Assembly (NCBI RefSeq): GCF_019924635.1
Contig: NZ_CP065037.1
Span: forward strand, 2,976,001 to 3,040,000
DNA: 64,000 bases
Direction: 5' to 3'
Origin: Leifsonia sp. ZF2019
GTDB lineage: Bacteria > Actinomycetota > Actinomycetes > Actinomycetales > Microbacteriaceae
A program made the translations under genes and the position numbers. This document shows positions 5,700 through 43,573 of the stretch, one piece after another. Position 1 is the first letter of the stretch. Each line of letters opens with the position of its first letter. Under the pieces are notes generated by a model. That model was given only the letters and a program-made list of their open reading frames with translations, was not told where the DNA came from and made no database searches.

Positions 5700-6857
5700 G
5701 TGACCGAGCACGAGCTGCTGACCGACGACCTCCTGGAGCGGTTCCGGGGGCGTGCCACCGCCTACGACGCCGAGAACCGCTTCTTCCAGGAGGACTTCGA
5801 CGAGCTCGTCGAGGCCGGCTACCTGCGGGCGCTCGTCCCAGCGGAGTTCGGCGGCCTCGGCCTCAGCCTGGAGCAGACCGCGCGCCTCCAGGTGCGGCTG
5901 GCGGGGGCGGCACCCGCCACCGCGCTCGCGGTCAACATGCACCTGGTGTGGACGGGCATCGCCAAGACCCTGCACGACCGCGGCGACCACGCCCTCGACC
6001 TCGTCCTCCGGGAGGCCGGCGCCGGCGAGGTGTTCGCCTTCGGGCTGAGCGAGGCCGGCAACGACCTCGTGCTGTTCGGCTCGACGACGGAGGCCCGTCC
6101 CGCGGGAGACGGCTCCTACACGTTCCACGGCCGCAAGATCTTCACCTCCCTCTCCCCGGCCTGGACCCGGCTCGGCACGATGGGGCTCGACTCGGCGAGC
6201 GCCGACGCCCCGAAGATCGTCTACGGCTTCATCGACCGCGACGCGGGCGGGTTCGAGATCCGCGACGATTGGGACACGATCGGGATGCGCGCCACCCAGA
6301 GCCGCACGACCGTGCTCGACGGCGCCCGGTCCGCCGCCGACCGCATCGTTCGGCGGCTCGCCCCCGGCCCCAACCCCGACCCGCTGGTCTTCGCGATCTT
6401 CGCCAATTTCGAGATCCTCCTCGCCGCCGTCTACACCGGCATCGGCGCCCGGGCTCTGGAGCTGGCCGTGGCCGCCGCCCATCGCCGCACCAGCCTCAAA
6501 GACGACGGCCGGAGCTACGCGAACGATCCGGACATCCGGTGGCGCGTCGCGGAGGCCGCGATCGAGCAGGACGCCCTCCTCCCCCAGCTCGACGCCCTGG
6601 CACGCGATGTCGACACACTCGCGAACCACGGCGCGCTGTGGTTCCCGAAGCTCGTCGGCCTGAAGGTCCGGGCCACCGAGACCGCGCGCCGCGTGGTCGA
6701 TCAGGCCGTCCGGGTCTCGGGAGGCTCGACCTACTTCGCCGGCAACGAGGTCGGCCGCTTGTACCGCGACGTGCTGGCGGGCATCTTCCACCCCTCGGAC
6801 GCGGAGTCGGCGCACAACACCGTCGCGAACGCCTGGCTCGGCCCCGTGGCGGACTGA
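5700..6857 (+). CDS. Acyl-CoA dehydrogenase family flavoprotein
   Basis: A 385-residue protein with the acyl-CoA dehydrogenase fold: an N-terminal helical domain with VPAEFGGLGLS, a middle beta domain with FGLSEAGNDLVLFG and IGMRATQSRTTVLDG, and a C-terminal FAD-binding helical domain ending in RVSGGSTYFAGNEVGRLYRDVLAG. The last segment resembles the group that includes flavin-dependent monooxygenases, so a role other than beta-oxidation is possible. The start is a GTG with TAGGCT (5687-5692) seven bases upstream, a leaderless arrangement. It is followed by an M24 peptidase gene. The substrate is unknown. Confidence 0.85.
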   Translation: MTEHELLTDDLLERFRGRATAYDAENRFFQEDFDELVEAGYLRALVPAEFGGLGLSLEQTARLQVRLAGAAPATALAVNMHLVWTGIAKTLHDRGDHALDLVLREAGAGEVFAFGLSEAGNDLVLFGSTTEARPAGDGSYTFHGRKIFTSLSPAWTRLGTMGLDSASADAPKIVYGFIDRDAGGFEIRDDWDTIGMRATQSRTTVLDGARSAADRIVRRLAPGPNPDPLVFAIFANFEILLAAVYTGIGARALELAVAAAHRRTSLKDDGRSYANDPDIRWRVAEAAIEQDALLPQLDALARDVDTLANHGALWFPKLVGLKVRATETARRVVDQAVRVSGGSTYFAGNEVGRLYRDVLAGIFHPSDAESAHNTVANAWLGPVAD

Positions 6858-39552: not shown

Positions 39553-39849
39553 ATGGACCGCATCCCCGAGGACGGCGTCGAGGACGAGCAGTACGGCGAC
39601 GGAGACGCCGGCGACACCGCGGGCTGGGTCGATCCCGCCGTCGGCGACGTCGACTACGCCGCCGACGACCCCATCGCCGAGGCCGACTTCGCCGACGAGC
39701 TCGTCACCACGGACGGCGTCGCCGGCGAGACCGTCTGGGGCAACCCGGCCGGCGGCGAGGCCTCCCCGATCGAGGACGAGCACGACCTCCTGGACGACCC
39801 CGACGAGGGCGTGCTGACGGAGGAGGACGTGGAGGAGGAAGGGATCTAG
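39553..39849 (+). CDS. Small acidic protein of unknown function
   Basis: A 98-residue protein extremely rich in Asp and Glu (for example EDEHDLLDDPDEGVLTEEDVEEEGI at the C-terminus), with no membrane segment or Cys. AGGAGG precedes the ATG. The last codons share a CTAG with the convergent tetR gene, so each stop codon is the other's complement. I recognise no function; the composition resembles disordered actinobacterial proteins of the DUF5709 kind. Confidence 0.75.
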   Translation: MDRIPEDGVEDEQYGDGDAGDTAGWVDPAVGDVDYAADDPIAEADFADELVTTDGVAGETVWGNPAGGEASPIEDEHDLLDDPDEGVLTEEDVEEEGI

Positions 39850-40451
39850 TCCGGCCGGCCGGGAACCGGGATCGCCGCGACCACGCCGCGGGCGCTCCGT
39901 TCCAGGAAGCCGACGATCTCGTCGGACGAGAGGTCGGTGCCGAGTGCGCTCTCGACGAGGGCCTCCTCTGCGAAGGCCACCCACGAGCGCAGCGCGATGC
40001 GCAGCAGCGGAGTGTCGGGCACGCCGAGTTCGAGGAAGGCCGCGACGACGCGGCCGGCCTGTTCCTCCCGCGCCTCCTCCACGACGGCGCGCACCTCGCT
40101 GTCGCCGCTCGCCACGCCGCGCACGAGCGAGTAGAACGTGCCGCGGTGCTCGCGCACGAACCGGACGATGCGCTCGAGCGTGTCGCGGAGGCGCTCGAGC
40201 GGGGGCAGCTCTGGCACCGGTTCCGTGGCGTGCAGCATGCTGTCGCGGGCGGTGCGGACGACCTCCCGGTGCAAGCCCTGCTTCGAGCCGAAGTAGTGGA
40301 AGAGGAGCGCCCGGGAGACCCCGGCGCGCTCGGAGAGGATGTCGATCGTGAGCGCATCCAGCGGCTCTTCGGCCAGGAGGGTGATGCCGAGCGCCACCAG
40401 CTGGGCACGACGCTCGTCCGGAGTGAGCCGGGTGCGCCGATCGGTGGACAT
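39846..40451 (-). CDS. TetR family regulator (second of a tandem pair)
   Basis: A 201-residue TetR protein with the DNA-binding segment LTIDILSERAGVSRALLFHYFGSKQGL and a C-terminal domain with the TetR_C pattern (VREHRGTFYSLVRG, LRSWVAFAEEALVE). ATG at 40451, 10 bases after the stop of another tetR gene on the same strand, so the two are probably co-transcribed. It ends by overlapping the convergent acidic-protein gene by four bases. Its target may be the TATTGACA-type palindrome at 41717. Confidence 0.88.
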   Translation of the reverse strand: MSTDRRTRLTPDERRAQLVALGITLLAEEPLDALTIDILSERAGVSRALLFHYFGSKQGLHREVVRTARDSMLHATEPVPELPPLERLRDTLERIVRFVREHRGTFYSLVRGVASGDSEVRAVVEEAREEQAGRVVAAFLELGVPDTPLLRIALRSWVAFAEEALVESALGTDLSSDEIVGFLERSARGVVAAIPVPGRPD

Positions 40452-40461
40452 GCTGCCCAGC

Positions 40462-41106
40462 CTAGGCGGCGAGGCGGTCGACCTCGGCGCGGAGGATGTC
40501 CAGCGCCCACTCCGGGGATCCGTCGCGCACGAGCAGGTGGAGGGCGAGGCCGTCGACGAGAGCGTGCAGGCGGAGCGCGTCCGTGCCGAGCGCGCGCTCG
40601 CGATCGGCGGCGTCCGCACCGGTGTCGTCCCCATCGGCGTCGGCACCCTCGGCGTCGGCACCCTCGGTCCCGGCTTCCCGGCGGAGGAGGCGAACCAGGT
40701 GGAGACATGCCCGCGACAGCGCCTGGTCGGCGATGTCGCGGATGCGGGCGAGGCCCGGCACGGCGGGCGCTTCCGCGATGAGCGCGATGTTGACCTCCAG
40801 CTCGGCGCGGCCGTCCGCCGTCAGCGGAAGCAGCTCGGCGAGCACGTCGAGCGCGTATTCCCGGGTGTCGGCGCGGCGCGGGAGGGCCTGGATGCGATCG
40901 GTGACGCGCTCGACCATCAGCTCGGCGGAGAACTCGATCAACTCGGTCCGCGTCGGGAACAGATGCCGGAGGGACCCGACCGCCACCTTCGCCTCCGCGG
41001 CCACGGTGCGAACCGAGACCGCTCCGAGACCCCGATCGGCGATGACGCGCCAGACGGCCTGGGCGAGGTCGGCTTTGCGGGCGTCGTGGTCGATCGTGCG
41101 CGGCAT
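40462..41106 (-). CDS. TetR family regulator (first of a tandem pair)
   Basis: A 214-residue TetR protein with the DNA-binding segment VSVRTVAAEAKVAVGSLRHLF followed by PTRTELIEF. Residues about 160-180 form an Asp/Glu/Ala-rich insertion (EGADAEGADADGDDTGADAA) encoded by short DNA repeats, probably a disordered loop. ATG at 41106 is preferred over an in-frame start six codons upstream that would run into the operator. It is divergent to the membrane-protein operon, with two matching operators in the 70-bp gap. Confidence 0.88.
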   Translation of the reverse strand: MPRTIDHDARKADLAQAVWRVIADRGLGAVSVRTVAAEAKVAVGSLRHLFPTRTELIEFSAELMVERVTDRIQALPRRADTREYALDVLAELLPLTADGRAELEVNIALIAEAPAVPGLARIRDIADQALSRACLHLVRLLRREAGTEGADAEGADADGDDTGADAADRERALGTDALRLHALVDGLALHLLVRDGSPEWALDILRAEVDRLAA

Positions 41107-41118
41107 GGAATCGGATGC

Positions 41119-41156
41119 TAGCACGAGCGTGCTAATTTGCTAGTACAATCGTGCTA
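41119..41156. promoter_or_regulatory. Twin TetR operators, TAGCACG class
   Basis: TAGCACG-AG-CGTGCTA (41119-41134) is a perfect palindrome, and TAGTACAATCGTGCTA (41141-41156) matches it at 13 of 16 positions. Centres are 22 bp apart. TACAAT (41144-41149) within the second site could be the -10 of the rightward promoter. Confidence 0.8.
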
Positions 41157-41176
41157 CCAACCAGGGAGGGGTGTCC

Positions 41177-41722
41177 ATGCTCGTCGCCGTGATCATCGCC
41201 TGCGAGGTCCTGTTCTGGGTCTTCATCGTCGCGGGGCTCAGTGCTCGCTATCCGCTCCGCCGCCGTCGCCTCGGGGCCGCGCTGCTCGCCCTCGCCCCGG
41301 TGACCGACGTGCTGCTCCTGGCCACGACCGCGATCGATCTCGCCGGAGGAGCGACGGCGACAGCAGCGCACGGGATCGCAGCGATCTACCTCGGCCTGTC
41401 GGTCGCATACGGGCGCGCGATGATCCGGTGGGCGGACATCCGCTTCGCCCACCGCTTCGCCGACGGTCCTGCCCCGATCAGGCGCACAGGGGCGGACTAC
41501 ACCCGCGCCTGCTGGCGGGATGTGCTCCGCACCCTGCTCGGCGCCGCCATCGCCGCCGGCGTCATCGGCCTGCTCATCCTCGTCGCGGGAGATCCGGAAC
41601 GCTCACAGGCGGTCGCGGCGTTCCTCCCGATCCTGTGCGTGGTGGTCGGGATCGACACACTGTGGGCGGTCAGCTACACGATCTGGCCGCGTCCGGCCCC
41701 TCGAACGGGTGCCACCTATTGA
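41177..41722 (+). CDS. Integral membrane protein, unknown function
   Basis: A 181-residue protein with five predicted membrane helices and a short cytoplasmic loop (IRWADIRFAHRFADGPAPIRR). The ATG at 41177 has GGAGGGG at a normal spacing; an in-frame GTG six bases upstream would overlap the Shine-Dalgarno. It is the first gene to the right of the twin TetR operators. Its stop codon lies inside the palindrome that controls the next promoter. No family is recognised with confidence. Confidence 0.75.
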   Translation: MLVAVIIACEVLFWVFIVAGLSARYPLRRRRLGAALLALAPVTDVLLLATTAIDLAGGATATAAHGIAAIYLGLSVAYGRAMIRWADIRFAHRFADGPAPIRRTGADYTRACWRDVLRTLLGAAIAAGVIGLLILVAGDPERSQAVAAFLPILCVVVGIDTLWAVSYTIWPRPAPRTGATY

Positions 41723-41746
41723 CAAACTGTCAATAACGTCTAGGTT
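41717..41746 (+). promoter_or_regulatory. Promoter with palindromic operator before the DUF6230 gene
   Basis: TTGACA (41719-41724) and TAGGTT (41741-41746) are separated by 16 bases. TATTGACA-AAC-TGTCAATA (41717-41735) is a perfect palindrome over the -35. It differs in sequence from the TAGCACG operators 600 bp upstream. Confidence 0.75.
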
Positions 41747-41799
41747 TGCTCCTGGACCTGACCGCACTGGCGCTGTCACGGCCCCGAACAGGAGGATCG

Positions 41800-42396
41800 A
41801 TGAGGTTTCGAAAGTTCGCCGGCACCCACGGGGGCCGCATCGTGCTCGCCGCCGTGCCCGTCGCCGTGGTGTCGACACTGCTGATGGCGGGAGTCGCGCA
41901 GGGAGCCGTGCCCGTGTCGTTCGCCGTCTCGGGCAGTCAATTCCAGATCTCCGCCTCGAAGCTGGAGGGCAGCGGATTCTCGCAGTACGCGGGCGTCGCG
42001 CCCGACACTGCGGGCACAGACCACCAGGTCGCGATCGCCAACATCAAGTCGGCGACACTGGCTGACCTCTGCCAGTCGGTCGTCACCGACACCCCGCTCG
42101 GCAAGGTCGGCATGCTCATCACCGCGGGCGGGGGCGGTTCGCCCGCCTCGGCCTCCGACCTCCAGATCGGCATGACCGACCTCAAGGGGGACTCGCAGTT
42201 CGGCAACATCCGGATCGGCGTCGACGCCTCCGCGGTCAACACGGCCGCCAAGGGCACCGCCGGCGACTTCGCACAGGACGCCGACACCGTCACGATCTCG
42301 AACCTGCAGCAGACGGCGTGGAGCACGCAGGCCTCCGTGTTCACCCTCACCGGAATGCACGTGCAGCTGACGGACGGTTCCAAGGGGTGCTTCTGA
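41800..42396 (+). CDS. DUF6230 family exported protein
   Basis: A 198-residue protein with an N-terminal signal or anchor helix (GRIVLAAVPVAVVSTLLMAGVAQG) and a beta-rich extracytoplasmic domain (PVSFAVSGSQFQISASKLEG, HQVAIANIKSATLADLCQS, two Cys). I recognise this as DUF6230, a family paired with DUF6114 in Streptomyces and other actinobacteria. GGAGG precedes the ATG. It begins an operon read from the TTGACA/TAGGTT promoter and overlaps the DUF6114 gene. The role is unknown; an envelope-associated lipid- or steroid-binding function is a guess. Confidence 0.82.
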   Translation: MRFRKFAGTHGGRIVLAAVPVAVVSTLLMAGVAQGAVPVSFAVSGSQFQISASKLEGSGFSQYAGVAPDTAGTDHQVAIANIKSATLADLCQSVVTDTPLGKVGMLITAGGGGSPASASDLQIGMTDLKGDSQFGNIRIGVDASAVNTAAKGTAGDFAQDADTVTISNLQQTAWSTQASVFTLTGMHVQLTDGSKGCF

Positions 42397-42833
42397 ACGC
42401 GACGGCCGCGGCGTCGGACGGCCGGACGGCGGGCGTCGTCCGCGCCCCCTCCGGCTCGCGGCGCGCACGGTTCCGCTCCTGGCGTCGCTCCCGTCCGTTC
42501 GTCGGCGGGCTGCTCACGGCGCTCGGCGGCATCGAGCTGTTCTTCTCCGGGCAGCTCGACATCGGCAAGATCCACGTGCAGCTTGGGATCGAGGGCCTCC
42601 AGGCGACGATCATCCCGATCGTGCTGGTGCTGCTCGGCGTCCTGGCCGTCGCGATGCCCGCCCACCACGTCTTCTACGGGGTCATCGCCCTCGCGGTCGC
42701 CGTGTACTCGCTCGTCGGCGTCAACCTCGGCGGGTTCTTCGTCGGGATGCTGCTGGCCAGCGTCGGAGGCGTGCTCACGGTGGCCTGGATGCCGAAGAAG
42801 ACCTCGACCGACGCCGGAGACGACGAGCGATGA
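42387..42833 (+). CDS. DUF6114 family membrane protein
   Basis: A protein of about 148 residues with a basic N-terminus (SRRARFRSWRRSRPFVGGLL) and four predicted helices (LGGIELFF, IIPIVLVLLGVLAVAMP, FYGVIALAVAVYSLVGVNLGG, FVGMLLASVGGVLTV), the pattern of DUF6114. The GTG at 42387 overlaps the DUF6230 gene by 10 bases; the ATG at 42318 is an alternative. Its TGA overlaps the ATG of the next gene (ATGA). It probably forms a membrane complex with the DUF6230 protein. Confidence 0.8.
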   Translation: MLLNATAAASDGRTAGVVRAPSGSRRARFRSWRRSRPFVGGLLTALGGIELFFSGQLDIGKIHVQLGIEGLQATIIPIVLVLLGVLAVAMPAHHVFYGVIALAVAVYSLVGVNLGGFFVGMLLASVGGVLTVAWMPKKTSTDAGDDER

Positions 42834-43573
42834 GCCCGCACGGCAGGCGGACGCGGCCCGGCGTGATGGTCGCCGCTCTGCTGGCGTGCGTGGTCGTCGC
42901 CGTGGGCGGTCTCGGCGCGGCGCGCCTCCCGGCCACCGCGCGCAGCGAGTTCTGCATCCCGATCCTGATCCCGTGCTCGACTCCGACGCCGACTCCGACA
43001 CCGACACCCTCGCCGGGGTCCGGCACAGGAGGCGGCTCGGGCGCGCCGGGCTCACCGCTCGACCCGCTGCTGCCCACGCCGACTCCCACACCGGGCGCTC
43101 CGGGCCCGACGCCCTCCGCGCCCGCGACGCCGGCTCCGGCGCCCACCGACGACGCGAGCGCACCGATCTTCACTCAGCCGCCGGCCCAGCTCGGTAGCCA
43201 GTCGCTCTCGTTCACCGGGCTCAGCGGTATCGCCGTCGTGAACGTGCCGCTGGCCGACGGCAGCCGCGTCCCCGCGCTGAGGATCTCGGCCGAGAGCATC
43301 ACGATCGGCGGCTTCAGCCTCACCGTGCGGCATGACACCGGCCCGTCGCTCGCCACCACGGCGGACACGATGACGTTGAAGGGCCACGTGCAGGTCTACC
43401 TGAACTCGATCACCGCGACGACAGCCGACGGGCGCTCCCTGACCCTCGGCGCCGACACTCCTCCCCCGGCGGACGGGGTGCCGAACGACCTGCTGCGTGT
43501 GACGCTCGGGCTCGTGGGCGCGACGGCCGACTCCATCGTCTACACGAACACGAAGCAGCACCTCTCGGAGTGA
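42830..43573 (+). CDS. Secreted Pro/Thr-repeat protein of the DUF6230/DUF6114 operon
   Basis: A 247-residue exported protein: signal sequence (about 10-35), a short CIPILIPC segment whose two Cys may form a disulfide, a long Thr-Pro/Ser-Pro stalk (about 48-110) encoded by CCGAC-type repeats, and a C-terminal beta-rich domain (LSFTGLSGIAVVNVPLADGS, LRISAESITIGGFSLTV). The last domain is reminiscent of the DUF6230 fold. The ATG overlaps the DUF6114 stop, so all three products are made in step. Function unknown. Confidence 0.8.
   Translation: MSPHGRRTRPGVMVAALLACVVVAVGGLGAARLPATARSEFCIPILIPCSTPTPTPTPTPSPGSGTGGGSGAPGSPLDPLLPTPTPTPGAPGPTPSAPATPAPAPTDDASAPIFTQPPAQLGSQSLSFTGLSGIAVVNVPLADGSRVPALRISAESITIGGFSLTVRHDTGPSLATTADTMTLKGHVQVYLNSITATTADGRSLTLGADTPPPADGVPNDLLRVTLGLVGATADSIVYTNTKQHLSE

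Follow-up and report, generated by a model that had tools for sequence, protein, structure and literature searches.

Conserved among actinobacteria yet little studied, the gene set of DUF6230, DUF6114 and a protein with a threonine/proline (Thr/Pro) stalk is present in the 64,000-nucleotide stretch of Leifsonia sp. ZF2019 analyzed here (contig NZ_CP065037.1, positions 2,976,001 to 3,040,000; hereafter the window). The divergent TetR-family regulator T1 is presumed, from comparison of loci, to be the dedicated repressor of this operon. A second TetR gene, T2, and the gene of a small membrane protein (MP) stand next to T1; judging from their distribution, they are a separate, self-contained pair, unrelated to the core system, that was inserted in the window's clade. 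The gene set, its linkage, a fusion of two of its members, the correlation of the operator with T1 and the insertion are all well supported by the comparison. It is proposed, with about even confidence, that the operon encodes a lipid- or ester-handling surface system, which T1 would repress until a hydrophobic ligand is encountered. An earlier note on this DNA had described the six genes as one envelope system with two tandem TetR regulators and two operator types; the six genes stand where it placed them and both operator types exist beyond chance, but the pair T2-MP with its operator type does not belong to the same system as the rest.

Gene set and its conservation

DUF6230, an exported all-beta protein (41800-42396, + strand), matches PF19741 with an E value of 3.7e-47 (160.7 bits against a cut-off of 27.5), covering model positions 1-145 of 145. 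DUF6114, a multi-pass membrane protein (42387-42833, + strand, with a GTG start read from the sequence), matches PF19609 at 2.2e-32 (112.3 bits against a cut-off of 27.9). The Thr/Pro-stalk protein (42830-43573, + strand) carries a C-terminal beta domain at about residues 105-247, for which no Pfam family scored above the cut-off. Because the genes overlap head to tail, DUF6230 and DUF6114 by 10 nucleotides and DUF6114 and the stalk gene in an ATGA, translational coupling of the three fits.

For comparison, the 80 top-ranking loci were taken from the 122 confirmed relatives that one single-sequence search gave; they are close kin and not independent of each other. These 80 named loci cover Microbacteriaceae, Sinomonas, Arthrobacter, Brevibacterium and unclassified metagenome-assembled genomes (MAGs), and the nearest of them is that of Leifsonia aquatica, with 96% identity in DUF6230. 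DUF6114 follows DUF6230 in all 80 and the stalk protein was found in 77, the other three (L105, L154 and L170) ending at a contig edge soon after DUF6230; the linkage suggested by the earlier note is hence conserved. Of the 60 short loci fetched from the samples of the phylum and the family, 59 also have a DUF6114 profile match next to DUF6230, the exception being L022. DUF6230 itself was present in 22 of 396 sampled phylum genomes, of which a single genus (g9) accounts for 11; for the family sample the figure is 47 of 398, and the window's own genome is counted in both. Distant loci also have the stalk beta domain next to DUF6230-DUF6114, three of them as a fusion with DUF6114, and the stalk varies in length. 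The genes surrounding the core set vary between loci; 10 of the 80, each from a named Leifsonia, have homologs of the window's dsbA-like and DnaJ-C28-like neighbors close by.

Some loci carry more than one copy. Three DUF6230 matches lie within about 4.3 kb in L096, one of them in a 471-amino-acid open frame, with DUF6114 among them. Two opposed DUF6230-DUF6114-stalk copies with equal scores are present in L084 and L152 (a Frigoribacterium MAG), where the paired DUF6230 matches lie within 2.4 kb and may be an assembly artefact. No annotation was found in the plasmid records for four DUF6230 regions.

T1 and its operator

T1 (39846-40451, − strand; this start was read from the sequence, whereas the analyses ran with 40448) matches TetR_N at 8e-11 (42 bits against a cut-off of 24) and TetR_C_46 at 1.3e-9 in Pfam, and is the divergent neighbor of DUF6230 in 71 of the 80 named loci. 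Its operator, TATTGACAAACTGTCAATA (TATTGACA/TGTCAATA), occupies 41717-41735 and overlaps the stop codon of MP. It has the form TATTGAC-N5-GTCAATA, and its core TTGAC-N5-GTCAA is found upstream of DUF6230 at about the same position in most T1-bearing relatives. The ten arm bases of the 72 distinct sites were invariant by selection, whereas the flanks were not constrained: on the left side 71 sites have T and 66 have A, and on the right side 56 have T and 41 have A. When the presence of T1 and operator was tallied over 79 loci (700 bases upstream were required, which excluded one shorter locus), 64 had both, seven had T1 without a good operator, eight had neither and none had the operator alone. 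The operator therefore tracks T1, being present in 64 of 71 loci with the regulator and in none of the eight without it; some of the seven keep an asymmetric TATTG...CAATA. In the window's genome the core occurs three times, with both flanks present solely at the DUF6230 site.

The operator's TTGACA probably also serves as the operon's −35 box, with TAGGTT as the candidate −10 after a 16-nucleotide spacer; a promoter scan listed no sigma-70 site here, and the proposed −10 matches at only 3 of 6 positions. The TTGAC-N5-GTCAA core is accompanied by a TANNCT-like element that begins 22 bases on. Because the operator overlaps the −35 box, T1 would be expected to repress. No ligand could be assigned to T1 through its PDB relatives, most rows of which cover mainly the N-terminal part; the record of the best of them, 2qib (residues 3-163), names no ligand. 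Of 16 listed relatives, 14 have TAGNNT on the T1 strand just 5' of the T1 start; L107 and L110 have TACGCT there. In the window this element is TAGGCT (40459-40464, − strand), a possible −10 of a leaderless T1 transcript.

Nine named loci have no T1 match, and seven of them (L133, L142, L149, L152, L163, L169 and L176, but not L165 or L168) share the motif GCGTCATA upstream of DUF6230. It also occurs in some T1-bearing loci, e.g. L113, L114 and L118, and would be a different control element. Five loci of a distant family (L017-L021) have a convergent TetR gene after DUF6114, which matches the T1 profile at E values from 6e-9 to 8e-14.

The T2-MP pair

T2 (40462-41106, − strand) is likewise a TetR-family regulator (TetR_N at 5.5e-8 and 32.9 bits, above the same cut-off), with a BetI-type C-terminus (9.1e-11 in Pfam). 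MP (41171-41722, + strand) appears by eye to be a small multi-pass membrane protein; it has no Pfam family, and the ATG at 41177 is its likelier start. Two TAGCACG-type palindromes between the genes, TAGCACGAGCGTGCTA at 41119-41134 and TAGTACAATCGTGCTA at 41141-41156, are presumed to be the T2 operators. The 4.34-Mb genome contains the pattern TAGNACNNNNGTNCTA at two places, each between T2 and MP, and the pattern read backwards, as a control, at one.

At the DUF6230 locus, T2 and MP were found only in the window and in L101 and L102. They are absent from the other 78 of the 80 named relatives, one of which (L169) has just 562 bases upstream. MP homologs were detected in 45 of 299 Microbacteriaceae genomes, and a T2-like TetR adjoins MP, divergent or downstream, in 18 of 20 fetched MP loci, the window's included; the TAGCACG palindrome precedes MP in four of the 20 (the window's, L191, L193 and L196). 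In a genome of the same genus (G657, contig C4:59960-60490), an MP homolog lies outside the DUF6230 locus, about 17 kb from it. From this distribution the two TetRs are assigned to different units, and their treatment as one regulatory system was rejected: they are adjacent, as the word tandem in the earlier note implied, but only T1 goes with the core set.

The place of insertion can be read from the spacing. In listed relatives without the insert, the T1 start lies 28 to 75 bases from the operator (224 in L173), and it is this gap that the pair occupies in the window, L101 and L102. The T2 stop is 10 bases from the T1 start, the TAGGCT beside that start is now part of the T2 stop codon, and MP ends inside the operator. 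Since T2-MP separates the T1 gene from its operator, T1 is now probably co-transcribed with T2 in the window's clade.

The beta domains

The alignments for structural work comprised 56 (A2) and 54 (A3) loci chosen from the 80, plus the window; L102 was excluded from both as its DUF6230 frame ends early. The predicted model of DUF6230 has long strands, with a mean predicted local distance difference test (pLDDT) score of 72. The earlier note held that the stalk beta domain resembles DUF6230. The domain has no Pfam match to DUF6230, and in hhalign comparisons the probability was 0.4% with shallow alignments and 15% with deeper ones (score 26.8 over 118 columns). Sixty column shuffles gave scores of at most 16.0 and reversed profiles gave 16.7 and 17.3. 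The score was 25.3 (10%) over 52 columns when distant DUF6230 members were added, and 22.9 (6%) in a different register with the distant members alone. The likeness thus stands above its controls and is suggestive, but it is weak and no proof. PDB sequence profiles returned weak rows only, with E values of 0.22 or worse. A match of the stalk domain to Phage_sheath_domII (E 0.01 in the window, in 8 of 55 members) lay below the cut-off and was judged to be chance.

The Streptomyces counterpart

The label Streptomyces-type is used here for loci recognized by our reading of gene order and by matches to che1 RNA. By eye, L087 and L089 have the order thioredoxin-like protein, DUF6230, DUF6114, stalk-domain protein, pyruvate kinase. 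In Streptomyces coelicolor, SCO5423 is named pyk2 and SCO5420 is labelled cholesterol esterase, with expression that rose almost 37-fold on Tween (PMC7494193). By synteny and gene numbering, SCO5420-SCO5422 is taken to be the same operon. The che1 RNA (RF02935) matches as the leader of DUF6230 in L087 (6231-6329) and L093 (7547-7639), and in six of 20 loci, all of them Streptomyces-type (L002, L004, L006, L011, L012 and L023). The Microbacteriaceae, Brevibacterium and second-paralog loci that were tested gave no match, and neither did the Streptomyces-type loci L008, L026 and L029. The window gave no Rfam match, RF02935 included, in the 3,015 bases around the operator (L186). The Streptomyces-type loci L002-L012 and L023-L030, 19 in all, gave no T1 match within 1.5 kb. 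Base-pairing between a 5' stretch of the che1 leader and the ribosome-binding site looks possible by eye and might switch translation.

At a Streptomyces plasmid locus (L184) a TetR_C_46 regulator stands beside DUF6230. Eight operator-like sites with one or two mismatches occur there, more than in any of 200 shuffles, one of those with a single mismatch lying over the end of the TetR gene (5738-5752). The T1 operator was rejected for this locus as it has no exact site.

With a Streptomyces counterpart that is labelled cholesterol esterase (SCO5420, by synteny) and a leader already known, the system is less undescribed than the earlier note supposed. None of the titles and abstracts among the literature matches listed deals with the three genes together, subscription papers being mostly outside the coverage. 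Two papers by Xiang and colleagues (2006 and 2007) reportedly concern a novel actinomycete cholesterol esterase, which may be DUF6230 or another family. In the library searched, the names DUF6230 and DUF6114 lead to a single paper, where DUF6230 is a table entry. RF02935 is credited to Weinberg et al. 2017 by PMC8388888, has been listed as a cis element in S. lividans and is described as of unknown function in PMC11678152.

Proposed role and alternatives

In the proposed mechanism, the exported DUF6230 and stalk beta domain, with DUF6114 as their membrane partner, would work together at the cell surface in handling a ligand that is a lipid or a fatty ester. T1, bound to the operator that contains the −35 box, would repress the operon, and a hydrophobic ligand would release it. 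Repression, the class of ligand, lipid binding, complex formation and co-transcription are all points that we infer. The lipid-handling role is favored by analogy with the Streptomyces expression data and by the weak fold likeness. Two results weigh against it: Foldseek gave nothing at E 0.001, either against the PDB with the DUF6230 and stalk models or against viral models with the stalk model, and 28 DUF6230 sequences contain no histidine at 85% conservation and no conserved esterase triad.

The second of these results also weighs against a reading in which DUF6230 is itself a secreted esterase belonging to an unusual family ("actinomycete cholesterol esterase"), exported or anchored by DUF6114 and the stalk protein. 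This reading is suggested by the Streptomyces label, by the Tween induction of SCO5420, by the titles of the two Xiang papers and by the detection outside the cell of proteins labelled cholesterol esterase. The residues invariant in the 28 sequences are Ser44, Gly45, Phe48, Leu55, Gly140 and two cysteines, and DUF6230 has no hydrolase family match in Pfam or NCBIfam. An esterase is considered rather unlikely. A classical sterol esterase or lipase of the alpha/beta hydrolase type was rejected, as there is neither a hydrolase domain nor a conserved Ser-His-acid triad. The conserved cysteines, the variable stalk, the all-beta domains without a conserved catalytic set and the weak likeness between the two domains are what a structural surface assembly would show, in which the stalk holds its beta domain outward, DUF6230 decorates it and lipids play no role. 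Control by a TetR whose flanked operator occurs once in the genome, and the Tween induction of the counterpart, would fit a ligand-responsive role better, and a purely structural assembly is judged unlikely, slightly more so than an esterase.

Joint control of one six-gene envelope system by T1 and T2 draws on the 10 bases between the two genes, a spacing that could let T2 affect how T1 is expressed in this clade. It is hardly credible given the 78 relatives without T2-MP, the occurrence of these genes elsewhere as their own pair and the restriction of the T2 operator type to the T2-MP interval. A bolder form of the lipid-handling proposal, in which DUF6230 and the stalk beta domain would be divergent copies of one lipid-binding fold that bridges from a DUF6114 membrane base through the wall of single-membrane actinobacteria, an Lpt-like lipid path without an outer membrane that its own lipid-sensing TetR would switch on, is considered quite improbable.

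Two DUF families and the stalk beta domain, which belongs to none in Pfam, gain a shared operon and a gene-fusion link from these results, and the core set gains a likely dedicated regulator, a defined operator and a testable class of ligand. The findings suggest that the database label cholesterol esterase needs checking. With T2-MP inserted between T1 and the T1 operator, the locus offers a clear natural example of regulatory rewiring.

Comparison with known systems

T1 and its operator resemble TetR divergent repressor modules in having a TetR_N domain, a palindromic operator over the promoter and divergent targets; unlike in those modules, the window's T1 gene is parted from its operator by an insertion. 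In its long strands the stalk beta domain may resemble the LptA/LptC and TULIP lipid-transfer folds, which were its top VIA-align rows; no structural match reached significance. The SCO5420-SCO5422 region of Streptomyces coelicolor contains the same three families as the window. The same gene set is controlled differently by lineage: Streptomyces-type loci have the che1 RNA leader, whereas Leifsonia has T1 and its operator instead.

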